NCBI GenBank assembly: GCA_026418905.1
Contig: JAOAAK010000017.1
Coordinates: forward strand, 1 to 34,121
DNA from: Bacteroidales bacterium
GTDB taxonomy: Bacteria; Bacteroidota; Bacteroidia; Bacteroidales; DTU049
DNA length: 34,121 nucleotides
Reading direction: 5' to 3'
Position numbers and translations under genes: made by a program. Numbering within the stretch: position 1 is the first letter of the stretch; each line of letters starts with the position of its first letter. Under the pieces are notes generated by a model that was not told the origin of the DNA, searched no databases, and saw only the letters and a program-made list of their open reading frames with translations. Positions 6,634-18,947 of the stretch are shown piece by piece.

Positions 6634-7572
6634 TTATTTTTTCTTGAAAAGTTTTAGAGCTTCATCTACGATTTGATCGGTATGCAATCCATACTTAATA
6701 AGTAACTCCTCTGGTTGACCAGATTCTCCGAAAGAGTCGGGCATGCCCATGATTTTCATGAGAACAGGATAATGTTGACTAAGACATTCAGCCACAGCTG
6801 AACCTAAACCACCATGAATTTGATGTTCTTCAATGGTAAGAACGCAACCTGTTTTACGGGCGTGGAATATGAGGCTTTCTTGGTCTAAAGGTTTGATGGT
6901 ATGAACATTCAGAACCGATGCAGATATGTTCAGTGTGTTAAGCTTTTGAGCGGCCTTGAGAGCATGATAGACCATATGTCCTGTGGCGACGATGGTTACG
7001 TCTTTTCCTTTGATAAGTTCATCGATTTTGCCCGGGGTAAATTTGTCGGTAATGGATGTAAAATTGGGAACGGCTTCTCTACCAAAACGAACATAAACGG
7101 GACCTTTGATTTGCTGGATTGCAGCCTTGGTTGCAAGATAGGTTTGATTTGCGTCGCAAGGGGAAAGTACAGTCATATGTGGTAGAGCACGCATAACGGC
7201 AATATCTTCAAGAGCCTGATGAGTAGCCCCATCTGGGCCAACAGAAATGCCAGCATGAGCACCTCCTATGATGACATGAATATTATTGTAACATATTGAG
7301 ATACGTATTTGGTCCGATGCTCTGAAAGCTGCAAAAACGCCATAAGTACTAAAAACGGGAATAAAACCTTCCAGGGCAAGTCCAGCAGCTATGGTAGCTG
7401 CGTTTTGCTCGGCAATGCCGATTGAAAAAAAACGTTCTGGGAATTTTTCAGCAAACCAGTGTACACACACTGAAGAAGAAATATCTAAACCAAGAACAAT
7501 TAATCGTTTTTCTATTTCACCTACATCTCTTAATGCTTCACCAAACCCAAAACGAGTAGGCTTTAATTCCAC
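6634..7572 (-). CDS. Transketolase, C-terminal subunit (split-type)
   Basis: The 312-residue protein corresponds to the pyrimidine-binding and C-terminal domains of transketolase. Visible motifs are RFFSIGIAEQNAATIAAGLA (Glu55 is the residue that activates the thiamine diphosphate aminopyrimidine ring), the GPDGATHQALEDIAVMRALP segment, and a C-terminal domain with TIEEHQIHGGLGSAVAE. The N-terminal pyrophosphate-binding half is absent. In split transketolases it is normally a separate, usually adjacent gene, but the upstream neighbour here is an unrelated plus-strand gene. A working enzyme of the non-oxidative pentose phosphate pathway would need a partner subunit encoded elsewhere. It is the first gene of the minus-strand unit running to 3362, and a promoter-like element lies just upstream. 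Confidence 0.88.
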   Translation of the reverse strand: MELKPTRFGFGEALRDVGEIEKRLIVLGLDISSSVCVHWFAEKFPERFFSIGIAEQNAATIAAGLALEGFIPVFSTYGVFAAFRASDQIRISICYNNIHVIIGGAHAGISVGPDGATHQALEDIAVMRALPHMTVLSPCDANQTYLATKAAIQQIKGPVYVRFGREAVPNFTSITDKFTPGKIDELIKGKDVTIVATGHMVYHALKAAQKLNTLNISASVLNVHTIKPLDQESLIFHARKTGCVLTIEEHQIHGGLGSAVAECLSQHYPVLMKIMGMPDSFGESGQPEELLIKYGLHTDQIVDEALKLFKKK

Positions 7573-7584
7573 TGATTTTTTTTA

Positions 7585-7616
7585 CAAAGATTTAAAAAAT
7601 TTAATCATATAACAAA
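7585..7616 (-). promoter_or_regulatory. Candidate Bacteroidota promoter for the transketolase unit
   Basis: On the minus strand TTTG (7616-7613) is followed after exactly 20 bases by AATCTTTG (7592-7585). This fits the Bacteroidota -33 TTTG / -7 TAnnTTTG pattern with one mismatch in the -7 box. Only 12 bases lie between the -7 box and the start codon at 7572. The assignment is by pattern only. Confidence 0.45.
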
Positions 7617-7668
7617 TTTGTGTCAAAAAATATTTCATGTGCCCAGGATTTATAATTTTTTTCTTTTG

Positions 7669-7700
7669 TATGACAAAATTTCAAATAATGTTTATATTTG
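7669..7700 (+). promoter_or_regulatory. Candidate Bacteroidota promoter for the MmpS-like lipoprotein gene
   Basis: TATATTTG at 7693-7700 (a perfect TAnnTTTG) is preceded 20 bases upstream by TATG at 7669-7672, which matches the -33 TTTG at three of four positions. The -7 box ends 13 bases before the chosen ATG at 7714. This also argues against the upstream start at 7618, because it would lie before the promoter. Confidence 0.45.
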
Positions 7701-7713
7701 CTCAAAATTTAAT

Positions 7714-8085
7714 ATGAAATACATAGTGCGTTTACTATCGATATTTTTTGTGTTTTTTATCATAAGTGGATGTGAAAAAAATAATTGGCCAATTGTCCTT
7801 AAATCAAAAGTAACGTATAAAGTTTCAGGAACTGCTTCGGAGGTCATTATTATGTACCGTGATGAAACGGGGTCGAATAAAATCAAGGGCATTTCAAGTT
7901 CGTCTGCTTTACCCTGGAAATATGAGTTTCGTGTTAAACCCGATACGTACGTATTCTTACAAGCGAAGAACAATACAGCCTCGGGTGAAGTAGTTGTAGA
8001 AATTTTGAAAGGATCTAAAGTTATTTTTACAGACAAAAGCTCGATTCCTTATGGGACAGCTACATGCAGTGGTTACATTAAATAA
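7714..8085 (+). CDS. MmpS-like small lipoprotein
   Basis: I start this gene at ATG 7714, not at the possible ATG at 7618, because MKYIVRLLSIFFVFFIISGC is a clear lipoprotein signal with Cys20 as the lipidated residue, and because a promoter-like element lies between the two. The 123-residue product has a VTYKVSGTASEVIIMYRD strand, an ALPWKYEF segment, NNTASGEVVVEI and a C-terminal TATCSGYI. This pattern of a short beta-sandwich with 'v-x-Y-x-V-x-G-x-A', 'LPW' and a late Cys resembles the MmpS accessory domain (PF05423 type) known from mycobacterial MmpL transport partners. The similarity is inferred by eye and the function here is unknown. Only 4 bases separate its stop from that of the convergent exonuclease gene. 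Confidence 0.7.
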   Translation: MKYIVRLLSIFFVFFIISGCEKNNWPIVLKSKVTYKVSGTASEVIIMYRDETGSNKIKGISSSSALPWKYEFRVKPDTYVFLQAKNNTASGEVVVEILKGSKVIFTDKSSIPYGTATCSGYIK

Positions 8086-8089
8086 CAAT

Positions 8090-9421
8090 TTAAAGCTTAA
8101 TTAATCGAATTGTAGTTTTGTTGATTTTAGGTGAGTTTAAAATAAGTTTCAGAAATTTGGTAAGTTCAAGAGGAGGAAGTGGTATAATTTTCAAAAACAG
8201 ATAAATTTCGTCAATTGAAGTTAAAGTAAAATCTGAAGGAAAATAGCCATATCCTTGAAATAGTCCATTCTTAATAAATACAAATGGTGTAGCGTTTGAA
8301 TTCTGGTTATCAATGATGAGAAAAGTTTTCTTTTCGAACAATTGGGAAAAAATAAGATTTTCAACACGTTGATTGTAAATATCTGGAGGTTCTTTATGGT
8401 TGTAAGTATTATGATAGAGTTGATACTCACAATGTAAATTTTTATTATTGAGTCCACATAGATTTTCGTAAAGCTCATTAGTTAAACACCATGCATAAAG
8501 TTCTTTTTTGGCTTCTTCTATTGTATCGAAGTGAATGAGAGGAAGTTCGTTTTTCTTTTTACTGGTTGGATGAATTTCGAAACAGATATATCCTTCATCG
8601 TTTACCTGATGGTAAATTCCTATTTTTTTAAGAAAACCATGTTTGCGCCTAAGATGAGCTTTTACTTTTTGAGTTTCAACCCATTCAAGCAAATTTGCAA
8701 TAAGTAAACTTTGAGTTTCAATATAACTAACATCCTCGAAAGATTGCTGAAGTGATTTATTGCGTGAATAGAAACTTCGGTATTGTTGTTGTACGGATTT
8801 TCTGATGTTCTCAGAGCTTTTGACAAGAAGTACGTTTTTATCTTTATCTAGAAGGAAAAACAATCCAGGAGTATCTGGCAGATATGAAAAAGAGTTGAAA
8901 TTGTCACATAAAGAGTAGTCTTGAAGTGAAAGAATTTTTAGAAAAAGGTTTGCTGTTGCCATAGCATCGCTAAGAGCGCGATGATGATCATGCAAAGGGA
9001 TGTCAAGCCAAGAAGTTAGTTTTTTCAGCTGATATGAAGGAAGGTCAGGAAAGAATTCGCGCGAAAGTCTTAAAGTGTCAATTATCGGAATTTCAAAATT
9101 GATGCCCATACGGGCAAATTCTGATTGTATGACTTTATAATCAAATGTTGCATTATGAGCAACAAAAATTGATTCTTTAAAAAAATTGAGCACATCAAAA
9201 GCAATTTCATGAAAATAGGGGGCATCTTTAATCATTTCATTGGATATTCCAGTTAGATTAGTTATGAAAGGAGGAATATGTTTGCCAGGATGAACAAGAC
9301 TATGAAAAGTTTCGGTAATTTTTTGATTTTCTATGCGAATAAGTGCAATTTCAATGATTCTATTTTGATTTAAAGTTCCACCTGTGGTTTCAACATCACA
9401 AACCACATATGATTTATTCAT
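8090..9421 (-). CDS. DnaQ-like 3'-5' exonuclease fused to a degenerate GIY-YIG domain
   Basis: The first ~165 residues of this 443-residue protein form a DEDDh exonuclease: Asp9 and Glu11 in CDVETTGG, Asp94 in HNATFDYKV, and His147 and Asp152 in HHRALSDAMAT are all present, so this half should be active. Residues about 182-260 align with the UvrC-type GIY-YIG nuclease fold (PGLFFLLDKDKNVLLVKSSENIRKSV), a fusion common in Bacteroidota. The nuclease residues are lost: GIY reads GLF, YIG reads LVK, the catalytic Arg is Ser209, and the metal-binding Glu position is Ala242. The C-terminal ~180 residues show no recognised domain. The role is probably nucleic-acid repair or processing, not the replicative proofreading subunit. 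It is the last gene of the chain starting at ribF, with a 4-bp overlap with the upstream lipoprotein gene. Confidence 0.85.
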   Translation of the reverse strand: MNKSYVVCDVETTGGTLNQNRIIEIALIRIENQKITETFHSLVHPGKHIPPFITNLTGISNEMIKDAPYFHEIAFDVLNFFKESIFVAHNATFDYKVIQSEFARMGINFEIPIIDTLRLSREFFPDLPSYQLKKLTSWLDIPLHDHHRALSDAMATANLFLKILSLQDYSLCDNFNSFSYLPDTPGLFFLLDKDKNVLLVKSSENIRKSVQQQYRSFYSRNKSLQQSFEDVSYIETQSLLIANLLEWVETQKVKAHLRRKHGFLKKIGIYHQVNDEGYICFEIHPTSKKKNELPLIHFDTIEEAKKELYAWCLTNELYENLCGLNNKNLHCEYQLYHNTYNHKEPPDIYNQRVENLIFSQLFEKKTFLIIDNQNSNATPFVFIKNGLFQGYGYFPSDFTLTSIDEIYLFLKIIPLPPLELTKFLKLILNSPKINKTTIRLIKL

Positions 9422-9936
9422 TGTTTTATGAGTTGTTCGAATCCATGAATTTTTTTGAGTTTTTCAAATAACGGGCGTGGATCAGCGGAAAGATTCCCTG
9501 CAGCAAGTTTACCACAATAATATGCATAGCCATTCAAAATTTCTTGATTATGATTGTCGAATAATTTGATTTTATAGTTTTTTCCAGAATCACAACCTGA
9601 TTCGATTATTTCTTCCTTCTTATGAAGTTTGAGTGAATCGATACTTTTGACCATGTCATGAAAAAAGTTTTCAGGAAGGATAAAAGTAGTATCGTGAAAA
9701 ACCCGGTATGCATTATATACTTTAACGTTCATGTTTGTAGGGGTAATTGTTGCTTTGTAATTTCTAATGTTTTCTTCAGATTTTCTCCTGACGTCTTCAA
9801 AAATGAAAATGATTTGTGTAGGCTTATATTGAATGATACTATCCTTTGGGTTTGTTTTATTGTCTTTATTGCTTGAATTGCAAGATAACAATAACAAAAC
9901 AATTAGACCTGAAATGAAAAGTATTATGCGGATCAT
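9418..9936 (-). CDS. Putative lipoprotein of unknown function
   Basis: The 172-residue protein has a lipoprotein signal (MIRIILFISGLIVLLLLSC, Cys19) followed by an Asn/Lys/Ser-rich linker and a globular domain of about 130 residues. That domain contains two further cysteines, in ESGCDSGKNY and YYCGKLAAGN, which could pair in the periplasm. I do not recognise the family. The ATGA overlap (4 bp) with the exonuclease gene downstream and a 4-bp overlap with truB upstream show that it is embedded in a translationally coupled chain. Confidence 0.7.
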   Translation of the reverse strand: MIRIILFISGLIVLLLLSCNSSNKDNKTNPKDSIIQYKPTQIIFIFEDVRRKSEENIRNYKATITPTNMNVKVYNAYRVFHDTTFILPENFFHDMVKSIDSLKLHKKEEIIESGCDSGKNYKIKLFDNHNQEILNGYAYYCGKLAAGNLSADPRPLFEKLKKIHGFEQLIKQ

Positions 9937-10646
9937 ACTTGAATCATTTTATTTTCGATAAGTTTTTCGACGAAGATGATAAATTCTTTGGGGTGCATGG
10001 CATCTTCAAGTTTATATTTTCCGATTTGTGTTCTACAGAGGGAGCCCAGGTAAGCTGCTGTCTCCAGGGCGTCGCCGAAGTCTCTTGCAATGGAACGAAT
10101 ATAAGTGCCTTTGCTGCAAACTATTTGAAAGTCCACTTCAGGAAGTTCAATACGGGTGATATTGAATTCATAAATCGTAATAGGGCGTGGAGATAGATGG
10201 ATAGTTTTACCATTTCTGACATACTCGTAAGCTCTTTTGCCGTTGACTTTGATGGCACTGTATTGAGGTGGCATTTGCATCTGGTTACCTATCATTTCTT
10301 TGGCTTTCTCCATAATAAGTTCGGGAGTAATATGGTCAATTGGGTATCCATCCTCAAGCTGGTCGAGTGTTTCTTTGTCGAAAGATGGAGTAAAAGCTCC
10401 GAGGACGAAAGTTCCCTCGTATGTTTTTGGAAGATTTTGGATTTTGCTAGCCATTTTGGTTTTTTTGTTAGTGAGAACAATAAGTAATCCGGTTGCAAGT
10501 GGATCAAGGGTGCCCCCATGACCAATTTTTATGGGTTTTTTCAAAAGCCTGTGTAGATTTTGTTTAATGAAATTGACTACGTCGAAAGACGTCCAAGTGT
10601 AGGGTTTATCAATTAGGAGAATTTCACCGCTTTCAAAATCGAACAT
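9933..10646 (-). CDS. truB: tRNA pseudouridine(55) synthase TruB
   Basis: This enzyme isomerises U55 in the T-loop of tRNAs to pseudouridine. The hallmark KIGHGGTLDPLATGLL carries the catalytic Asp, and later motifs (PPQYSAIKVNGKRAYEYVR, CSKGTYIRSIARDFG) are those of TruB. I use ATG 10646 (protein of 237 residues, beginning MFDFESGEILLIDKPYTWTS), the usual TruB N-terminus. A longer frame from 10721 would add 25 non-conserved residues and overlap uppP by 73 bp. With the chosen start the gene begins 2 bases after the uppP stop. The protein lacks the extra C-terminal PUA domain found in longer TruB forms, as is usual in this phylum. Confidence 0.93.
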   Translation of the reverse strand: MFDFESGEILLIDKPYTWTSFDVVNFIKQNLHRLLKKPIKIGHGGTLDPLATGLLIVLTNKKTKMASKIQNLPKTYEGTFVLGAFTPSFDKETLDQLEDGYPIDHITPELIMEKAKEMIGNQMQMPPQYSAIKVNGKRAYEYVRNGKTIHLSPRPITIYEFNITRIELPEVDFQIVCSKGTYIRSIARDFGDALETAAYLGSLCRTQIGKYKLEDAMHPKEFIIFVEKLIENKMIQV

Positions 10647-10648
10647 AT

Positions 10649-11428
10649 TTATAGATTTGTAAATGTTATTCCTGCATTCATTAAAATCAGGAAAATCATA
10701 CTTAATATGATACGATACCAACCAAAAAACTTAAATCCAAATTTAACAAGAAATGAAATGAATGATTTTATGACAAGGATGGCGATTATAAAAGAGATGA
10801 AATTGCCCAAAATGATTAATTTCAAATGAAATGGATCAAGCAAAACTTCATGATTTTTGTAAAGCTCAAATCCTGATGCTGCTGTGATGGTAGGTACTGC
10901 GAGAAAAAAACTAAATTCTGCTGCTTGTTTTCTGCTAAGTTTTTGTGCAAGACCACCTATGATGGTAGCTGCAGAGCGACTCACTCCAGGTAACATTGAA
11001 AAAACCTGGAAAAGGCCTATGAAAAAAGAGTGTCTCGGTGTAATCTTAGGTGCGTCTTCTCTATTTCCAAGTTTATCAATGAAAATCATGATTATGCCAA
11101 CTATGAAAAGATTAATAACAACCATCAGAACGTTAGACAGAAATTCTTCAATATAGGAATGAAACAATAAACCCAGCAGAGCTGCTGGAAAAAAAGCAAT
11201 AAATAAATTGAGGTAGAACTGAAGGTCTTTAAAAAATTCTTTATAATACAAAACAACAACTGCTAATATTGCTCCGAACTGGATAGAAATAATATATGTT
11301 TTGACAAATTCGGTTGATTCAATTTGCAACAATGATTGAGCTAAAATGAGATGTCCCGTTGATGAGACTGGTATAAATTCAGTTAGGCCTTCGACTATAG
11401 CAAGGACAATGGCTTCGAAAAGTGTCAT
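10649..11428 (-). CDS. uppP: Undecaprenyl-diphosphatase UppP (BacA)
   Basis: The 259-residue polytopic membrane protein has both signature motifs of the BacA/UppP family: EGLTEFIPVSSTGHLIL near 14-30 and the second loop with SMLPGVSRSAATI near 141-153. It dephosphorylates undecaprenyl diphosphate to recycle the lipid carrier used for peptidoglycan and O-antigen synthesis. About eight transmembrane segments are apparent and the length is normal. The start overlaps the DUF3098 gene by 4 bp (ATGA) and the stop is 2 bases before truB; this order is a conserved Bacteroidota string. Confidence 0.95.
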   Translation of the reverse strand: MTLFEAIVLAIVEGLTEFIPVSSTGHLILAQSLLQIESTEFVKTYIISIQFGAILAVVVLYYKEFFKDLQFYLNLFIAFFPAALLGLLFHSYIEEFLSNVLMVVINLFIVGIIMIFIDKLGNREDAPKITPRHSFFIGLFQVFSMLPGVSRSAATIIGGLAQKLSRKQAAEFSFFLAVPTITAASGFELYKNHEVLLDPFHLKLIILGNFISFIIAILVIKSFISFLVKFGFKFFGWYRIILSMIFLILMNAGITFTNL

Positions 11429-11679
11429 TTCTTATTATTATTTGCTGGGCGGTAAAGTATGGCTATCACATTTACCACGATTCCTAGAACAATGAGAATG
11501 GGGGCTAAAGTCAATCTTTGAAAAGAAAAAATTTCGTAATTAAAAACCTTGGGATCATGGGAACCACCACCTATCATTAAAAGATATCCCAAAGCCATAA
11601 GTAAGATGCCGCCTAGCATTAGCAAATAGTTTATTTTTCCGAAAACCATTTGGGGTTTGTTTTGAGGAGTTTGCTTCAT
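11425..11679 (-). CDS. DUF3098 small membrane protein
   Basis: I use ATG 11679 (MKQTPQNKPQMVFGKINY, 84 residues). An upstream ATG at 11715 would add 12 residues outside the family's usual N-terminus and overlap the LRR gene by 13 bp. The protein has a short polar N-terminus and two transmembrane helices joined by a loop with GGGSHDPKVFNYEIFSFQRLT, which is characteristic of DUF3098. The family is restricted to Bacteroidota and normally lies between ftsX and uppP. Here ftsX is not upstream; an LRR protein gene occupies that place. The role is unknown, although the usual neighbourhood suggests a link to cell division or envelope growth. Confidence 0.87.
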   Translation of the reverse strand: MKQTPQNKPQMVFGKINYLLMLGGILLMALGYLLMIGGGSHDPKVFNYEIFSFQRLTLAPILIVLGIVVNVIAILYRPANNNKK

Positions 11680-11702
11680 GTTTTTTTGCAAAGTTAATTT
11701 TT

Positions 11703-12293
11703 TTAATTTCTGCAATTACAACTTTGACTGAAAAAAATCCTAGTATGAGGAAGAAGATTTTCGATATAGCTTTGTTGTTCTTTGGTAAGTGGAATAACTC
11801 GAAGATCTAAGTATTGAAGAGAAGAGGATATCTTTTGAATTTCTTCAGGTAAACTAGTTATATTAGTTCCTGCCAAATTAAGAGATTTGAGATTTGTTAA
11901 ATTTCCTATCTCTGAAGGTAGGGTAGACAGGTCATTGAAACGAAGAATGAGGGTAGAGAGTTGAGAACACTTGCCTATTTCAGGAGGAAGTGTTTTAATC
12001 CGATTGTTACCGAGATTAAGAACACGTAGATTTTTAAGTTCTGCAATCTGAGGTGGTATCTCTTCAATTCTATTGAAGCTAAGGTCAAGATAGATAAGAT
12101 TTTTGCATAAGAATATTTCGGATGGGAAAGATTTAAGGCCTTTATGGGTCAATTTAATAAATTGGACACTATCAGGATTTTGTCTAATTTCGGACAATTT
12201 TTTATAAGGTTTTAGTAATTTGTAATTAAAGTCATTTTGCGTCAATAAAGAAATGGTATAAAAGAAGAAAAGTATTGAAACAATTGTTTTCAT
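11703..12293 (-). CDS. Leucine-rich repeat protein, exported
   Basis: The 196-residue protein begins with a hydrophobic signal (MKTIVSILFFFYTISLLTQ). It then has about five leucine-rich repeats of 23 residues between roughly 60 and 175, with the consensus L-x-x-L-x-L-x-x-N-x-I-x-x-L-P-x-E-I, closest to the bacterial 'PPxE/LPxEI' type. It ends with a Cys-containing tail (SQSCNCRN). LRR solenoids bind proteins; the partner here is unknown. The gene overlaps the end of ribF by 4 bp (12290-12293) and precedes DUF3098, so it appears co-transcribed with core genes even though LRR genes are not usual members of this string. Confidence 0.8.
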   Translation of the reverse strand: MKTIVSILFFFYTISLLTQNDFNYKLLKPYKKLSEIRQNPDSVQFIKLTHKGLKSFPSEIFLCKNLIYLDLSFNRIEEIPPQIAELKNLRVLNLGNNRIKTLPPEIGKCSQLSTLILRFNDLSTLPSEIGNLTNLKSLNLAGTNITSLPEEIQKISSSLQYLDLRVIPLTKEQQSYIENLLPHTRIFFSQSCNCRN

Positions 12294-13237
12294 TTGAATT
12301 GTTTTGCAAGAAGAGCAAGGGTTTTAGCTTTATCACGGTGGAGTTGGGAAGTGAGTTCTTCCGAAGAGGAGAATTTTCTTTCTTCTCTAATTCGGTCATA
12401 AATTTGAATAATTAATTCTTTTCCATAAAGATCAATGTTAATATCTAACAAATGGGCTTCTAACCTAAGGCTTTTTCCATTGAATGTAGGTCTTGTTCCA
12501 ATATTGACCATAGCAGGATAAGCTTGATGATCTACTTTGATTATAGCAGCGTAAACTCCGTTTGGTGGGAGTAGTTTTTCTGATAAGTCTATGGCTATGT
12601 TGGCTGTGGGAAACCCTAATTTTGAGCCAAGGTGATCCCCATGGATAACCGTACCTATAATAGTATAAGGATAGCCTAATAAACGATTTGCCAGTTGAAT
12701 GTTTCCATAAGTAAGAAGTTTTCTGATTTTAGAAGAACTAACAATGAGACCGTTTATTTCGACTGGCTCAAGCCGAATAAGTTGAATCTTAAGTTCGTTA
12801 CATATTTTTTCAAGCGTCTCGCTGTTTCCTTCTCTATTTTTTCCAAAAGCATGATCGTGACCAATGACGATGACGGATGCATGAAAAACACGGTGAAGAA
12901 TATCACGGACGAAATGTTCGGGGGGTATTTCTGCAAATTCAGTTGTAAAAGGTTGAAAATGAATATAGTCTGGTTTGAAAGGAAGGTAAGACAATAGGTG
13001 TATTTTTTCCTTGTTGGTAGTTAGAACTTTAACACTTTGGTCACCTTGGTAGAGAATGTTTCTTGGATGTTGTGCAAAAGTATATAAAAGTGAAGGAATT
13101 TGTTTCTCTCGTGCAATCGAATGTAGCCTATTTAAAATAGTTTGATGCCCTATATGGATTCCATCAAAAGTGCCTACGGTGATGGCAAGTTGGTTAGAGT
13201 GTAACTCGTGGATGTTATCTGGAGTTAAAGTTTTCAT
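12290..13237 (-). CDS. ribF: Bifunctional riboflavin kinase / FAD synthetase RibF
   Basis: The 315-residue protein has an N-terminal nucleotidyltransferase domain with VGTFDGIHIGHQTIL near 21-35 and SSSKIRKLL near 167-175, and a C-terminal riboflavin kinase domain with GDHLGSKLGFPTANI, then PPNGVYAAI and the RPTFNGKSLRLEAHLLD stretch. It phosphorylates riboflavin to FMN and adenylates FMN to FAD. Length and motifs are complete. It leads the coupled minus-strand chain that continues to 8090 and is divergent from sucC. A TATTTTTG element lies 14 bases upstream of the ATG. No FMN riboswitch-like structure fits in the 130-bp spacer. Confidence 0.95.
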   Translation of the reverse strand: MKTLTPDNIHELHSNQLAITVGTFDGIHIGHQTILNRLHSIAREKQIPSLLYTFAQHPRNILYQGDQSVKVLTTNKEKIHLLSYLPFKPDYIHFQPFTTEFAEIPPEHFVRDILHRVFHASVIVIGHDHAFGKNREGNSETLEKICNELKIQLIRLEPVEINGLIVSSSKIRKLLTYGNIQLANRLLGYPYTIIGTVIHGDHLGSKLGFPTANIAIDLSEKLLPPNGVYAAIIKVDHQAYPAMVNIGTRPTFNGKSLRLEAHLLDINIDLYGKELIIQIYDRIREERKFSSSEELTSQLHRDKAKTLALLAKQFK

Positions 13238-13251
13238 GTATAGATTGTTTG

Positions 13252-13259
13252 CAAAAATA
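13252..13259 (-). promoter_or_regulatory. Candidate -7 element for ribF
   Basis: On the minus strand TATTTTTG matches TAnnTTTG and ends 14 bases before the ribF start at 13237. No convincing -33 TTTG was found 19-21 bases further upstream, so confidence is limited. Confidence 0.35.
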
Positions 13260-13322
13260 ATTTTTTCTTAGTGATAAAAGTTTTGATCTAAGACATTTCG
13301 TATTATCAGAAAATTTAATGAT

Positions 13323-13354
13323 TTTGTTAGTTAGAGAAATTTCGATTACGTTTG
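13323..13354 (+). promoter_or_regulatory. Bacteroidota promoter for sucC
   Basis: TTTG at 13323-13326, a 20-base spacer, then TACGTTTG at 13347-13354. Both boxes match the phylum consensus perfectly. The -7 box ends 13 bases before the sucC ATG, so transcription should begin only a few bases before the start codon. This is the best promoter in the window. Confidence 0.65.
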
Positions 13355-13367
13355 CAAAAAAGATGTT

Positions 13368-14558
13368 ATGAATTTGCATGAGTATCAAGCAAAAATGTTG
13401 TTGAAACAATATGGGGTTTTGGTTCCAGTGGGATATGTAGCAAGTAATTCTGAAGAAGCTTTGATGGCTGCTAAAAAAGTTTGGGATGAAACCAAAGTAG
13501 AAGGTTGGGCTATTAAAGCTCAAATTCATGCAGGGGGGAGAGGTAAGGCTGGTGGAATTAAAATAGCTCGCCATATGGAGGAAGTTGAGTTATTTTCCCA
13601 ACAGCTTATCGGGAGCAAGCTAATTACTCCTCAAACTTCTGCGGAGGGTAAACTAGTACGAAAGATTTTGATCGAGCAAAACATATATTATCCAGGAGAA
13701 GAACAACCGCTGGAGTTTTATGTTAGTTTTCTGTTAAATAAAGCCCTGGAAAAATACATGTTTATGTATTCCATCCAAGGTGGCATGGAAATTGAGGTAG
13801 TTGCTGAGAAAAATCCCGAACTTATTTTTACTGAAATCATTGATCCTATGTTGGGTCTTATGCCGTATCAGGCTAGAAGAATGGCATATAATCTTGGTTT
13901 AAAAGGAGTGGCTTTTCAAAACATGGTTTCTTTTCTTCTGAATTTATACCGTGCGGCTATTTCTATAGATGCTAACCTTGTCGAAATCAATCCGGTTTTG
14001 AAAGCATCGGATGGTAAAATATTTGCAGCTGATGCTAAGGTGGTTATTGATAACAATGCGTTATTCAGGCATCCTGAGATTGCACAAATGGATGATCCTG
14101 ATGAAATGGATTCACTTGAAAGAGAAGCTACGCACTATAAACTTAATTACATAAAGTTAAACGGCAATGTGGGTTGTATGGTTAACGGAGCAGGTCTAGC
14201 CATGGCAACGATGGATGTTATTAAGATGAGTGGAGGTGAACCTGCTAATTTTCTTGATGTGGGTGGAAGTGCAGATGTCGACAGAGTAGAAAAAGGTTTT
14301 CGCATTATTCTAAAGGATCCCAATGTAAGGCTGATTTTTGTGAATATTTTTGGAGGTATTGTTCGTTGTGATCGCGTTGCCAATGGTATTGTCCAAGCGT
14401 ACAGGAACATTGGTGAGATACCTGTACCAGTGGTGGTTCGGTTGCAAGGAACAAATGCAGAAGAAGGAAAACAACTTATTGCTGAGAGTGGATTAAAAGT
14501 ATATTCTGTAATTTACATTGAGGAGGCAGCTGAATTGATCAATAAATTATTGTCTTAA
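13368..14558 (+). CDS. sucC: Succinyl-CoA synthetase (ADP-forming) beta subunit
   Basis: The 396-residue protein has the canonical SucC N-terminus MNLHEYQAKMLLKQYGV, an ATP-grasp domain with QIHAGGRGKAGGIK near 52-65, and a CoA-ligase domain with NFLDVGGSAD, FVNIFGGIVRCD and VRLQGTNAEEGK. It forms the heterotetramer with SucD that converts succinyl-CoA to succinate with nucleoside triphosphate formation in the TCA cycle. sucD is not next to it; the following gene is convergent. Separate sucC and sucD loci are known in Bacteroidota. A strong promoter sits immediately upstream. Its TAA shares the TTAA at 14555-14558 with the stop of the convergent aldolase gene. Confidence 0.96.
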   Translation: MNLHEYQAKMLLKQYGVLVPVGYVASNSEEALMAAKKVWDETKVEGWAIKAQIHAGGRGKAGGIKIARHMEEVELFSQQLIGSKLITPQTSAEGKLVRKILIEQNIYYPGEEQPLEFYVSFLLNKALEKYMFMYSIQGGMEIEVVAEKNPELIFTEIIDPMLGLMPYQARRMAYNLGLKGVAFQNMVSFLLNLYRAAISIDANLVEINPVLKASDGKIFAADAKVVIDNNALFRHPEIAQMDDPDEMDSLEREATHYKLNYIKLNGNVGCMVNGAGLAMATMDVIKMSGGEPANFLDVGGSADVDRVEKGFRIILKDPNVRLIFVNIFGGIVRCDRVANGIVQAYRNIGEIPVPVVVRLQGTNAEEGKQLIAESGLKVYSVIYIEEAAELINKLLS

Positions 14559-15364
14559 TGGGGATAATGAGAAAAAATATTTTTGAGTTTGCGAATGGTG
14601 CGATAGGATAATAGATGCGGATTTAGTCGCATGTGATTGATTTGCATGTAAATATGGACAGCATGATCAAGTAAATCCAAGCGTTCAGTTATGTCTTCTA
14701 CAGATTTTCCTCTTATCACGATACCATGATTTTGCCATAGACATATAGGAGATGTAAGCATAGTATGAGCCGTAGTATTCGCAAGCTTTTCAGAACCAGG
14801 TAGGGCAAAAGATAGAATGGAAATACCTTCAGGTAATCTGATAATAAGTTCTGGTAAAAGAGAAAAAAGCAATCGATTTATTTTGCGTTCTCCACGAAAA
14901 ACGTTAACTTTAATATGGGATAAAGCTATAAGAGAAGGAATATGGGCATGAACAAGAATATGACTATCAATCGATTTTTTTTTAAGAGCATGATGGACAG
15001 CAAAATGTGTTCTCCATTCTGAAGTAGGCAAAATACCTTCAAGAGGAGCGTAAAGTTCTATATAGTTGGTATGAAAAACACATAAAACAACATGTTGTAC
15101 TGGATCTTTAGCTATTTCACTCATCGAAGTTCCTGAAGCTGAGAGAACTAGAGCATGATTGGTGAGATATGTGTAAGGATTTTCCTTGAGGAAAATAGTT
15201 TTGTGGGGAAAATTGTCAAGAATGGAAATTTGAAAAGTATCTTTCCATGGGAAACGTAGAGAAATATTACCTCCTGTTGCGTAAGCCCAACCCCTATCGT
15301 GTAGATATGTTGCTAGCTGAGAGAAAGTAGAGGAGAATTCAATTTCTTGTTTAAAATTTAACAT
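14555..15364 (-). CDS. Class II aldolase, rhamnulose-1-phosphate aldolase (RhaD)-like
   Basis: The 269-residue protein follows RhaD along its whole length: an N-terminal TGGNISLR segment, LVLSASGTSMSEI (phosphate loop region), PTSEWRTHF (the Glu is the catalytic base equivalent to RhaD Glu117), VHAHIPSLIALSHI (two zinc His), PEGISILSFALPGSEKLA, and ICLWQNHGIVIRG (third zinc His). All metal ligands are present. The expected reaction is the reversible cleavage of rhamnulose 1-phosphate to dihydroxyacetone phosphate and L-lactaldehyde, but no other rhamnose genes are nearby, so the substrate is uncertain. The start codon overlaps the 3' end of the large secreted protein gene by 14 bp. The protein is cytoplasmic, with no signal peptide. 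Confidence 0.8.
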   Translation of the reverse strand: MLNFKQEIEFSSTFSQLATYLHDRGWAYATGGNISLRFPWKDTFQISILDNFPHKTIFLKENPYTYLTNHALVLSASGTSMSEIAKDPVQHVVLCVFHTNYIELYAPLEGILPTSEWRTHFAVHHALKKKSIDSHILVHAHIPSLIALSHIKVNVFRGERKINRLLFSLLPELIIRLPEGISILSFALPGSEKLANTTAHTMLTSPICLWQNHGIVIRGKSVEDITERLDLLDHAVHIYMQINHMRLNPHLLSYRTIRKLKNIFSHYPH

Positions 15365-18300
15365 GTACCGTCTGAGTATATTCTTGATTGTTGATTATCA
15401 GTTTTAATAAATAGGTTCCTTCAGATAAGTGTGCAAGTGATATTCGTTTTTCATTAATTTCATTAAGATGCTCCCATAGTACAAGTTTTCCTTGTGGGTC
15501 ATAAATTGACAAATAGCCAGATACAGGATTATTGGGGAAATGAATAAAGAAAATTCCATTGGATGGATTAGGAAATATTACAAAGGGAAGGGAAGAATTT
15601 TCGGCAATTGATAAGGGGTCTACAAGAAGTAAAGCAGAGTTAGAAGTGGCGTTCCCACATGTTCCATTCACTATGCATCGATAATAGCCTTGATCTGCAG
15701 GTGTAACATTGAAAATCTGTAGAGTTGAAGAATTAGCACCAGAAATATGGCTGTTGTTGGAGAGATTAACTCCATCTTTTTGCCATTGATAGGTGAGATT
15801 TGTGCCAGATGCAACCACTGTAAAAGTAGCATTGCTTCCTTCATTAATAGAAAGATTGGCTGGATGGGATGTGATGATGGTACTTGGATAGACAGTAAGT
15901 GTAGCATTGGAACTGTTAGTCGAACCACAGCTATTAGAAACCACACAAGAATAAGTTCCGGCATCTGCAGTAGTAACAGACGAGAGCATTAGGGTAGAAG
16001 AAGTGGCTCCTGGGATACTAATACCATCTTTTTTCCACTGATATTGAAGGGGTGATGAGCCAGAAGCATTAATACTAAAAGTAACATTGTTTCCTTGGCA
16101 AACTGATTGAGAGGTGGGTTGTGTAGTAATAGTTGGGGGATTAGAGAGTGTAAGAGTAGCGGGATTGCTTTCAGCATTACCACACGCATTGCTAACAACA
16201 CAGGTGTAAGATCCTACATCTGATGAACCAACGGATGTTATGGTAAACGTTGAATTGGTAGCTCCATTGATATTGGTGCCGTTCTTTTTCCATTGATAAG
16301 ATATGGGAGGGGTGCCATTCGCGGAAACTGTAAAACTTACCTGAGAACCTGGGCAAGCTGAAGTACTGGTAGGATGAGTGGCTATGGTTGCTGCAGTACA
16401 ACCCACTGTTGAATTAATCACAAGATCATCAATCCAAAGCATAAACTTGCCACTTGATACGTGTTGAATGGCAAGATAAATGGTTTGGTTGTTGTAAGAA
16501 GAAAGATCGTAGGTAAATTGGGTCCATGTTGAGGGTGCTTGAACAGGATTGCTTCCACTTATGGGTGTAAAGCTAGAAGGATTATTATTAGTGGTAGAGA
16601 CAAGTACTTTGAATTCATCATTACCCCATGTACCAGGCTTTGGGCTTAGGGCCCAAAAAGAGAAACTGGAATTGGTACCAAGTTGAATAGGGGGAGAAAT
16701 AAACCAATCATTGCTAGCAGAACCATCGGCAGGACAGATGGACATTCCACAGCGAGAACCTCCATGAGCTACATCACCTTGAGATGCGGTCCAGCCACTT
16801 GCAACGGGATTCATGCACATCCATGCAAATGCAGAACCCTCATTGGGGAAATTGCAATCAGCACTTTGATAAGTAGGTTTGCCATCGCCATCGTAAGTTG
16901 TCCATGGTGTAAAATCGGTCGTATAATCAGTTGAATTTTCAAAGTCCCATGTGAAAGGAAAAGAATTAATGGGGGCGGTGAGGGTGGTAGCTTGTGCAGT
17001 AACACCTGTACTCCAATTGTAACTTCCTGTGTTACTCCATAACTTATAATAATAAGTTGTATTGGGAGATAATCCTGTATGTGAGAAAGATGTCGCCGAT
17101 CCATAATAAATGACAGTCCCACCCCCTGGAATGTTTTGACCCGGTGAATAAGAGGTTCCATTTGCAGGGGTTCCGAAAGTGGGGGTGGTGGAATATGCTA
17201 GAAGTACTGGATTGTTACTGGAATTCAGATTCCAAGTTAGGTTAATTTGCGAAGAAGAAACAGCGTTAGCTGTAAAATTGGTTGGATTGGTATTATTTGG
17301 AAATTTGAAAGCAATGATGGTAGTTTTTTTTGTACTGGTATTTACACCCATGTAGGATGATGAAAACCAGAAAGTTTCTTCATCCACTGGATCAACCGAC
17401 ATAAGGGCATAATCGCCCCATCGATTAACGGAAGCTTGATAAGTTGTTCCATCAGCTATAGTATATTCACTTACATCAAAAACGCCTGAAGCATTCACAT
17501 TTTCTGATGCTGTTTGTCCTGTAAGACGAAGTCCAGGATATAAATTCGAACTAGCGATACTATATGCGACGGCTATATCTTTATTTTTATTGATAGCAAT
17601 ACTTGCGTTCCATCTACTATTAGCATCTGGCTTATAGGTTCCACTTTGACGAATTTCCCACTGACCTGAGGTTTGATTCTTTTTCAATTCATACCAACGA
17701 ATCCCAGCTTGCTGACTACCTACATCCACAGCATGACATGCTACGATTCTTTCGTCACCATTTCCAAAATTTCTGTATTTTACTGAGTACATAAGCATCT
17801 CACTAAGGGCATCCAATTTTTGTGTAGTGCCTTTTTGTGTAATGTCGTTCCAGTTAGTTCCAAAAACAGCATCAAAAGCAGGAACATTGATTTGCTGGAT
17901 TCTTGAAAAGGTCGAACTCTGGGGATTGGACCAGTTAACAGTCAATGCATATAACCATAATTGATCAGACCCACCCCATGCATTATCGTTGATGGTTAAA
18001 AATAAACCAGGGGTTCCGCTTGGAGCAAATGTTCCATCGTTATCCACAGGCATGATACAATGAAATCCAGAAGCAGTAGAGGGGCGATAAGGGTTATCAA
18101 AGCCAACCATAGCAGGGTTACTACCTCCATTAAGCATGGTCGATCGATCAAAGACATATACATCTTTTCCTGAAGAATTATTGACAGCCATGTAATATCC
18201 ATCGCGCCAAATACCAAATTTCATATAATCAGGCATATCGTCCACATCAAAAGACCATCGATACCATGTTCCTGTGGGATCACTTGAGGTGCTTACAGCG

Positions 18301-18902
18301 ATAAGCATGTAATCGTTAGACCCTGAAACAGAAAATTCAGCCGCCAGCCATCTCTGAGCATTTTCATCATAAAGAATAATAGGATCACCATCGTTGTAAG
18401 AAGATCCAGTCACCCCACTGAACAATGTGTTATAATTAGTAGGACCTGCCACCGTATTTCCTTGTTTATTGTAAATCTTGTATTGAACATTATAGGCTTG
18501 AAAATAATGATTGGGTCCAACAGATCCATTAGCATCAGGAGGAAAACTACTATTATTAGGTCCGGCAAATTGCACAACAATTTGAGGTGTTGCTTTACTA
18601 GCAGGTAAAAAGTTCTGAAGAACAGGATCTACTTCTATAATTTCTTTCACATTAGGGTTAGGTTGCAACGGGGGTTTTTTAACATCTACCTTCTTACCTT
18701 TTTCTTTTGGAGGATCAATGCCAAGATCTCTCAAAGGTGGTGAAATATCAAAATATACGGGGTATTTAATTACACTAGGATATACAACTTCGACTCCTGT
18801 TGAGTTTTGGACAGAAATTGTTTTTTGATCGGTTAACACCTGCCCCATTAATCCTAGATACAGGACAAAACTGATGAAAAACAAACCCCTTTTTATCCAC
18901 AT
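15351..18902 (-). CDS. Large multidomain T9SS-secreted surface protein
   Basis: This 1183-residue protein starts with a signal peptide (MWIKRGLFFISFVLYLGLMGQ). Residues ~100-530 form a region with repeated Trp/Asp-rich strands that looks like a beta-propeller. Residues ~537-640 are a fibronectin type III domain. Residues ~642-832 are a 'choice-of-anchor J'/cleaved-adhesin jelly-roll (FPFTWDFENS, NDWFISPPI, SFWALSP). Three immunoglobulin-like domains follow at ~835-920, 921-1003 and 1004-1090, each with the C-x(n)-YQWKKNG and D-x-G-x-Y-x-C core. Residues ~1104-1183 are a type A T9SS sorting domain (FPNPSNGIFFIHF, LSEGTYLLKL). The protein should be exported through the Sec and Por systems and anchored at or released from the cell surface. 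No protease or glycosidase motif was seen, so an adhesive or binding role is inferred. Confidence 0.9.
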   Translation of the reverse strand: MWIKRGLFFISFVLYLGLMGQVLTDQKTISVQNSTGVEVVYPSVIKYPVYFDISPPLRDLGIDPPKEKGKKVDVKKPPLQPNPNVKEIIEVDPVLQNFLPASKATPQIVVQFAGPNNSSFPPDANGSVGPNHYFQAYNVQYKIYNKQGNTVAGPTNYNTLFSGVTGSSYNDGDPIILYDENAQRWLAAEFSVSGSNDYMLIAVSTSSDPTGTWYRWSFDVDDMPDYMKFGIWRDGYYMAVNNSSGKDVYVFDRSTMLNGGSNPAMVGFDNPYRPSTASGFHCIMPVDNDGTFAPSGTPGLFLTINDNAWGGSDQLWLYALTVNWSNPQSSTFSRIQQINVPAFDAVFGTNWNDITQKGTTQKLDALSEMLMYSVKYRNFGNGDERIVACHAVDVGSQQAGIRWYELKKNQTSGQWEIRQSGTYKPDANSRWNASIAINKNKDIAVAYSIASSNLYPGLRLTGQTASENVNASGVFDVSEYTIADGTTYQASVNRWGDYALMSVDPVDEETFWFSSSYMGVNTSTKKTTIIAFKFPNNTNPTNFTANAVSSSQINLTWNLNSSNNPVLLAYSTTPTFGTPANGTSYSPGQNIPGGGTVIYYGSATSFSHTGLSPNTTYYYKLWSNTGSYNWSTGVTAQATTLTAPINSFPFTWDFENSTDYTTDFTPWTTYDGDGKPTYQSADCNFPNEGSAFAWMCMNPVASGWTASQGDVAHGGSRCGMSICPADGSASNDWFISPPIQLGTNSSFSFWALSPKPGTWGNDEFKVLVSTTNNNPSSFTPISGSNPVQAPSTWTQFTYDLSSYNNQTIYLAIQHVSSGKFMLWIDDLVINSTVGCTAATIATHPTSTSACPGSQVSFTVSANGTPPISYQWKKNGTNINGATNSTFTITSVGSSDVGSYTCVVSNACGNAESNPATLTLSNPPTITTQPTSQSVCQGNNVTFSINASGSSPLQYQWKKDGISIPGATSSTLMLSSVTTADAGTYSCVVSNSCGSTNSSNATLTVYPSTIITSHPANLSINEGSNATFTVVASGTNLTYQWQKDGVNLSNNSHISGANSSTLQIFNVTPADQGYYRCIVNGTCGNATSNSALLLVDPLSIAENSSLPFVIFPNPSNGIFFIHFPNNPVSGYLSIYDPQGKLVLWEHLNEINEKRISLAHLSEGTYLLKLIINNQEYTQTVHVKF
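15635..16400 (-). repeat. Three tandem Ig-like domain-coding repeats
   Basis: Within the T9SS gene three ~250-bp segments (about 16145-16400, 15893-16142 and 15635-15890) code for homologous Ig-like domains with the recurring core Y-Q-W-K/Q-K-D/N-G and the D-x-G-x-Y-x-C-x-V motif. They have diverged in DNA sequence, so this is an old internal duplication. Confidence 0.75.
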
Positions 18903-18915
18903 AAAAGATTTTTTA

Positions 18916-18947
18916 CAAAACTATATTACTTAATTGAAAAAATCAAT
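18916..18947 (-). promoter_or_regulatory. Candidate promoter for the T9SS surface protein
   Basis: On the minus strand TAGTTTTG (18923-18916) matches TAnnTTTG and is preceded by ATTG (18947-18944) with a 20-base spacer. The -7 box ends 13 bases before the ATG at 18902. Confidence 0.45.

Follow-up and report, generated by a model that had tools for sequence, protein, structure and literature searches.

Promoters recognized by the primary sigma factor of Bacteroidota (sigma-ABfr) carry a −7 element, TAnnTTTG or TAHHTTTG, and a −33 element, TTTG. In Flavobacterium johnsoniae, as described for its mapped promoters, G is nearly absent from the box, there is no clear −33 element, 4–5 bases separate the box from the transcription start, and 13% of the leaders are ≤10 nucleotides (nt) long (PMC6847099). 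F. psychrophilum has the box at −12 to −5 and a median leader of 24 nt (PMC9723704), and 3.7% of Bacteroides thetaiotaomicron leaders are given as under 10 nt (PMC7366714). The median leaders cited for published Bacteroidota maps are 24 and 32 nt, and near-leaderless mRNAs are called rare (PMC6847099, PMC9723704, PMC7366714). We analyzed a 34,121-nt stretch of a Bacteroidales bacterium (assembly GCA_026418905.1, contig JAOAAK010000017.1, positions 1 to 34,121), hereafter the window, together with the genome to which it belongs. The same −7 box is found here, with the A-rich stretch near −18 that sigma-ABfr promoters also have and, as in F. johnsoniae, no clear −33 element. Compared with the three species above, however, the boxes lie nearer to the start codons, and a close class of them carries a tract of adenines over the predicted transcription start.

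How Bacteroidota initiate translation without Shine–Dalgarno (SD) pairing is an open question. Translation in F. johnsoniae is reported to be aided by A at −3, −6, −12, and −13, and adenines rather than SD pairing mark the start region both in the A-rich, Kozak-like starts of that species and in the genome studied here (PMC6847099). The two cases differ in what the adenines are fixed to. They keep set distances from the start codons of mostly leadered mRNAs in F. johnsoniae (PMC6847099), whereas the tract described here keeps its place relative to the promoter. If more than a third of a lineage's recognizable promoters predict leaders of ≤10 nt, with adenines on the transcription start, that lineage would be a natural test of the role of upstream adenines, and the module itself offers a very compact expression element.

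A second comparison is with the leaderless mRNAs of Actinobacteria and Deinococcus-Thermus, where a −10-type box some 10 bases ahead of the start codon likewise indicates that the leader is missing or very short (PMC3160421). The genome studied here differs in that the box is TAHHTTTG, the predicted leaders are about 2–10 nt, and an A-tract is present. That survey lists leaderless genes in one of 37 Bacteroidetes/Chlorobi genomes and, according to its authors, identified Pribnow-like boxes only (PMC3160421). Our results suggest that surveys restricted in this way miss leaderless genes in Bacteroidota. Each part of the present arrangement is of a known type, and it is the amount of close promoters and the A-run that are unusual. 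Among the matches listed in the open-licence literature, none described near-leaderless genes linked to an A-tract as a class in this phylum.

Promoter boxes lie close to start codons

The genome is a 2.11-Mb draft, of which 1.21 Mb were used, and 1012 genes were called with our own hexamer caller. We define the gap as the number of bases between the end of the −7 box and the start codon, and refer to boxes at gaps of 6–14 as close. Gaps were measured in 229 well-called genes. In each of these, the caller placed the start at the first ATG of the frame, and a divergent neighbor is at least 50 bases away or a same-strand neighbor at least 60. TAHHTTTG is present within 60 bases upstream of 129 of these genes. 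Over gaps 6–21, the strict boxes number 4, 9, 4, 6, 0, 1, 4, 8, 6, 8, 7, 12, 5, 8, 7, and 2 per base, on a background of 0.18 per base. The close range alone holds 42 real boxes, 23 of them at gaps of 6–9, compared with 0–3 for each of six one-base-changed kinds. In a first sample, 12 boxes lay within 20 bases of the starts of 279 operon-internal genes, versus 36 for 118 divergent genes. As a class, the −7 boxes at start codons are real promoters, and their gaps form a broad hump, mostly between 6 and 21.

An initial annotation of the window had pointed to a constant gap of 12–14 bases at five genes, which are listed below. The genome-wide distance plot has no sharp peak at these values, and the constancy does not extend beyond the chosen genes. 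We also considered these five genes as a local cluster and rejected the idea, since 18 of the 220 well-called genes outside the window (8%) have TAnnTTTG at the same gaps and a hand-picked window is weak evidence.

Predicted leader lengths were calculated from background-corrected boxes by assuming 4 bases between box and transcription start, a distance borrowed from the Flavobacterium maps. The median predicted leader is 13 nt, with 36% at ≤10 nt and 21% at ≤5 nt. For genome G032 the same pipeline gives a median of 22 nt and 12% at ≤10 nt (68 genes, about 29 excess boxes), and its agreement with the published values is a rough calibration with small counts. The corresponding medians (and shares at ≤10 nt) are 15 nt (14%) for G001, 16 nt (29%) for G002, 17 nt (7%) for G106, and 18 nt (21%) for G028, figures that rest on 10.7 to 43.8 excess boxes each. 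The prediction of near-leaderless mRNAs made in the initial annotation is sound for a large class, comprising about 36% of the background-corrected boxes; the fixed-gap rule from which they had been derived does not hold.

An A-tract follows the close boxes

The sequence immediately 3′ of the close boxes is rich in adenines. In the 42 genes, the frequency of A is 0.95, 0.90, and 0.90 at positions +4, +5, and +6 after the box, and 0.20 at +9. A is also frequent at +2 and +3, ahead of the predicted transcription start. AAA occupies +4 to +6 in 35 of the 42 genes, compared with 17 of 49 at gaps of 15–21 and eight of 32 at gaps of 22–60. Counted from the start codon, the equivalent positions carry AAA in 9–13% of other genes, and random draws of those start-relative positions give a mean of 5.4 of 42 and a maximum of 15 in 5000 draws. 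Because the enrichment exceeds this start-relative expectation, the A-tract is tied to the promoter. Of the 42 close genes, 35 have a run of at least four adenines touching +4 to +6; of 76 others, 29 do (p 2e-6). This promoter-anchored A-tract is a linked feature that is absent from the initial annotation.

The association can also be seen without gene calls. We counted the pattern TAHHTTTG-N-ATGAAA in whole genomes at close (gap 8–14) and distant (gap 22–28) sites, and used the reversed pattern as a control. In the genome of the window, AAA is present at 37 of 63 close versus four of 38 distant sites. Every one of the 12 family genomes shows the contrast in this direction (one-sided p 0.03 to 8e-7), although six of the 12 belong to a single genus and share sites, so that the genomes are not independent. 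Its 37 A-tract sites place this genome first of 41 in the order, where the other 40 genomes have 0 to 13 each and, when pooled, AAA at 113 of 919 close sites. In the gene-called close set of G002, seven of 10 genes have AAA.

Almost no strict boxes occur at gaps 10–11 (one in the 229 genes), with gaps 6–9 and 12–21 well filled. A division into two gap populations was rejected on the grounds that, by hand count, the 37 A-tract sites include five at gap 10 and one at gap 11. Another characteristic of the close sites is a C directly after the box, which was found in 60% of gap 8–14 sites in the first sample (n = 20); TTTG followed by CAAA often makes up the palindrome TTTGCAAA.

Support for the start codons

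All 23 proteins encoded at gaps of 6–9 were scanned against NCBIfam, and 12 have a profile match that begins within their first 10 residues and the first five profile positions. These are LepA, asparagine synthase, D-Ala ligase, RecN, an Rrf2 regulator, HemK, RsfS, a YtvI-like protein (below cut-off), SdhC, BT_3928, a nitroreductase, and a racemase-like enzyme. Such N-terminal matches support the start codons of these 12 genes, eight of which have the A-tract. For LepA (L007:2697-4484, minus strand) and for asparagine synthase (L026:3585-5528, minus strand; N-terminal MCGICG), the box lies 6 bases before an ATG that is fixed by the protein family, with no A-tract. Leaders of about 2 nt are predicted for both.

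For the window genes, the profile alignment of SucC begins at residue 1 and profile position 1, that of RibF at 13 and 13, and the Transket_pyr alignment of the tkt product at 6 and 5. The MmpS-like protein and the protein sorted by the type IX secretion system (T9SS) have signal-peptide-like N termini, as judged by eye from the translations.

A probable compact module and its alternatives

We consider it probable that these are ordinary housekeeping-type promoters of Bacteroidota and that this lineage has often joined them to the translation start, so that the two make up a compact, near-leaderless module. The promoter would consist of the −7 element TAHHTTTG, with no clear fixed −33 element, set very near the start codon, and transcription would begin 4–5 bases past the box, upon the A-tract. 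We infer this start position, and with it the near-leaderless 5′ ends, from the F. johnsoniae and F. psychrophilum data. At gaps of 6–9, the expected 5′ ends are of the kind AAA-AUG, with a leader of about 2–5 nt. At gaps of 12–14, those of the five genes in the initial annotation, an oligo(A) leader of about 7–10 nt would result. A dual role of the A-tract is most likely. It would offer RNA polymerase a favorable start site, and it would also serve as an unstructured, A-rich ribosome entry that replaces the adenines usual at about −11 to −14 in SD-free mRNAs of Bacteroidota, for which such a short leader leaves little or no space. A leader of 2–5 nt has no position −12, so the adenines may have moved onto the 5′ end, where they could serve both polymerase and ribosome.

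Several observations weigh against this explanation. The 4–5 base rule is borrowed from other species, and the 5′ ends here are predicted. No strict box is present within 60 bases of 100 of the 229 well-called genes, and AAA at +4 to +6 also occurs in a quarter to a third of the promoters that are not close. The gene-called close sets of three other genomes lack AAA altogether (0 of 3 in G001, 0 of 2 in G032, and 0 of 6 in G028). Eleven of the 23 proteins at gaps of 6–9 have no profile support for their start, and AAA at +4 to +6 is missing from four genes with some of the most firmly fixed starts, those for LepA, asparagine synthase, RecN, and HemK. The start calls come from our own caller, which is wrong on the T9SS gene. 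The 82 genes called from an ATG other than the first hold just two boxes at gaps of 6–14, and the 71 genes starting with GTG or TTG likewise hold just two. Finally, six of eight readable sucC loci in the family have no box by eye, and neither the spacing nor the box is conserved there.

In vaccinia virus and in yeast cytoplasmic virus-like elements, 5′ poly(A) leaders occur, and an A-run at the transcription start with little templated leader is a likeness shared by the promoters described here. The adenines reported for poxviruses and yeast elements are untemplated, whereas those described here are known from DNA alone. If RNA polymerase slipped on the A-tract, untemplated adenines would be added and the 5′ oligo(A) leaders would be longer than the genome predicts. 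The excess of runs of at least four adenines in the close genes, at what is a predicted start site, speaks for slippage. However, adenines are common ahead of that site too, at +2 and +3, and AAA is seen at a frequency of 0.83, compared with 0.77 expected from the single positions (0.95 x 0.90 x 0.90), which does not indicate a need for an unbroken run. Slippage is an unlikely, if possible, addition to the module, and the data are compatible with oligo(A) leaders of this origin without requiring them. Its furthest extension is quite unlikely. Under that proposal, box, A-tract, and AUG would form one module of 20–25 bases, and slippage would build 5′ oligo(A) leaders on many chromosomal mRNAs, a counterpart of those of poxviruses, that load SD-blind ribosomes at the 5′ end.

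The A-tract could alternatively reflect the ordinary A-richness of start regions, with adenines set by their distance to the start codon (about −3, −6, and −11 to −14) and boxes adjoining them by chance. F. johnsoniae is known to have start codons with A-enriched surroundings (PMC6847099). Operon genes in the present genome have 0.58–0.65 A at −11 to −13, and a gap of 12–14 places the tract near these positions. Yet the tract is sharp when genes are aligned on the box across gaps of 6 to 14, and the start-relative frequency of AAA in other genes is just 9–13%. These box-aligned data largely refute an origin in start-region A-richness, which we regard as rather improbable.

It is highly improbable that misplaced start codons (with the true starts downstream) or chance background boxes produced the pattern: although our caller erred on one window gene, a first-ATG rule could bias gaps downwards, and the 11 unsupported starts at gaps of 6–9 are in line with misplacement, changed boxes are nearly absent from the close range, the shape of the gap distribution is unchanged when only genes lacking another in-frame ATG within 60 bases are taken (first sample), the profile-supported starts agree with the calls, the same pipeline yields longer leaders in G032, and the ATGAAA counts are independent of gene calls.

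Boxes of the window, the −33 element, and Shine–Dalgarno words

The elements at the five window genes are as follows.

7592-7585, minus strand: −7-like box AATCTTTG of tkt, one mismatch; gap 12 to the GTG at 7572
7576..7583, minus strand: A-tract of tkt (A8), spanning the predicted transcription start
7693-7700, plus strand: −7 box TATATTTG of the MmpS-like gene; gap 13 to the ATG at 7714
7704..7707, plus strand: A-tract of the MmpS-like gene (A4), 3′ of the box
13323..13326, plus strand: −33-like TTTG of sucC, 20 bases before the −7 box; genome-wide hardly distinguishable from chance
13347-13354, plus strand: −7 box TACGTTTG of sucC; gap 13 to the ATG at 13368
13356..13361, plus strand: A-tract of sucC (A6), 3′ of the box
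13259-13252, minus strand: −7 box TATTTTTG of ribF; gap 14 to the ATG at 13237
13248..13250, minus strand: AAA of ribF, 3′ of the box; a C interrupts the run, so that AAA at +4 to +6 is missed
18923-18916, minus strand: −7 box TAGTTTTG of the gene for a T9SS-sorted immunoglobulin (Ig)-domain protein; gap 13 to the ATG at 18902
18909..18914, minus strand: A-tract of the T9SS gene (A6), 3′ of the box

All five boxes and their positions agree with the initial annotation. Two of the five match TAHHTTTG strictly, two match TAnnTTTG only, and one has the mismatch; a G lies within the box at sucC and at the T9SS gene. The sequence after the ribF box is CAAACAA, and the other four genes have AAA at +4 to +6. 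For the T9SS gene, our caller chose a start at 18848 rather than 18902. Fourteen window genes have intergenic starts, and for four of them a start of the longer open reading frame was used instead of that of our caller. The five listed genes fit the pattern, tkt only if one mismatch is allowed. Among the nine remaining genes, a strict TAnnTTTG lies at 51 bases in one and at 58 in another, and no strict TAnnTTTG was found in the 70 bases upstream of seven (one-mismatch boxes were not sought). Across the whole window, TAnnTTTG is present 46 times versus 48.2 expected, which is not above chance. The enrichment lies beside start codons.

A −33-like box exactly 20 bases upstream of the −7 box had been proposed for four of the five genes. 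Such words are indeed present: TTTG at tkt and sucC, TATG at the MmpS-like gene, and ATTG at the T9SS gene, with AAAC at ribF. At spacings of 10–33 from 151 boxes, we examined TTTG (exact or with one mismatch), TTG, TTGA, and TTGAC (one mismatch). TTTG with ≤1 mismatch occurs at spacing 20 in 24 of the 151 boxes, compared with a mean of 21.1 over all spacings, and there is no peak. An earlier count gave 13 of 96 boxes at this spacing, with neighboring spacings similar. Exact TTTG is commonest at spacing 20 (4 of 151; mean 1.7), and TTG at spacing 19 (nine of 151; mean 3.8). A fixed −33 spacing is thus not supported as a rule, and a weak remnant is possible given this weak excess. A genome scan for TTTG-N19-21-TAnnTTTG, the check suggested by the initial annotation, does return more matches (118) than the pattern read backwards (60), with a control that ignores the enrichment of the −7 box itself. 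Within the window, TTTG and TAnnTTTG are combined at spacings of 17–23 once, versus 2.9 expected.

There is no SD signal in the genome. SD-like words precede 11 of 382 genes, compared with 13 of 382 at 35 bases further up; for operon genes, the counts are 20 of 429 and 16 of 429, respectively. The short leaders had been described as too short for SD pairing. Short leaders are indeed predicted, but the argument is moot because genes here are not preceded by an excess of SD-like words.

The tkt gene of the window (6634-7572, minus strand; GTG start) encodes pyrimidine-binding and C-terminal domains only, and appears to represent half of a split transketolase.

Comparison with related genomes

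In the whole-genome pattern count, the genome of the window has 63 sites (control 12) at gaps of 8–14 and 38 sites (control 5) at gaps of 22–28, a net close-to-distant ratio of 1.55. Among the 40 other genomes of the order, the median ratio is 0.38, and only G148 exceeds 1.55, with small counts (12 and 5). The genome of the window is therefore second of 41 in this respect, and one further genome, G135, is at parity (seven close versus seven distant sites). The family comprises 12 genomes in four genera, and the net ratios of its other members are 0.38 to 0.91. In a list of matches that may omit very near records, the best named relatives of SucC are about 66% identical and come from metagenome bins labelled Sphingobacteriia and Bacteroidales, followed by Marinilabiliales at 64%; the lineage thus belongs to Bacteroidota and is probably close to Bacteroidales. 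In a draw of 118 genomes from the phylum, judged by eye with controls subtracted, close sites outnumber distant ones in G052 (21 versus 12), G092 (19 versus 10), and G044 (15 versus 3). The shift toward close boxes is not unique to this genome. Because G052, G092, and G044 belong to other families, Bacteroidota may have acquired short leaders more than once. With genes called, G044 yields only two boxes within 60 bases, and this genome was left out of later comparisons.

The sucC gene provides a view of a single promoter across the family. Upstream of sucC in the eight readable loci, TACGTTTG is found once at a gap of 19 (relative G009, L043), and one locus has a one-mismatch box at a gap of 18. 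Among the stretches of G001 and G002, few orthologs of the close genes have matching N termini. The module is a property of the promoter set of the genome rather than of a given gene. One relative's locus also contains minisatellite-like runs of GGGAGACT-type units, which are apparently intergenic.

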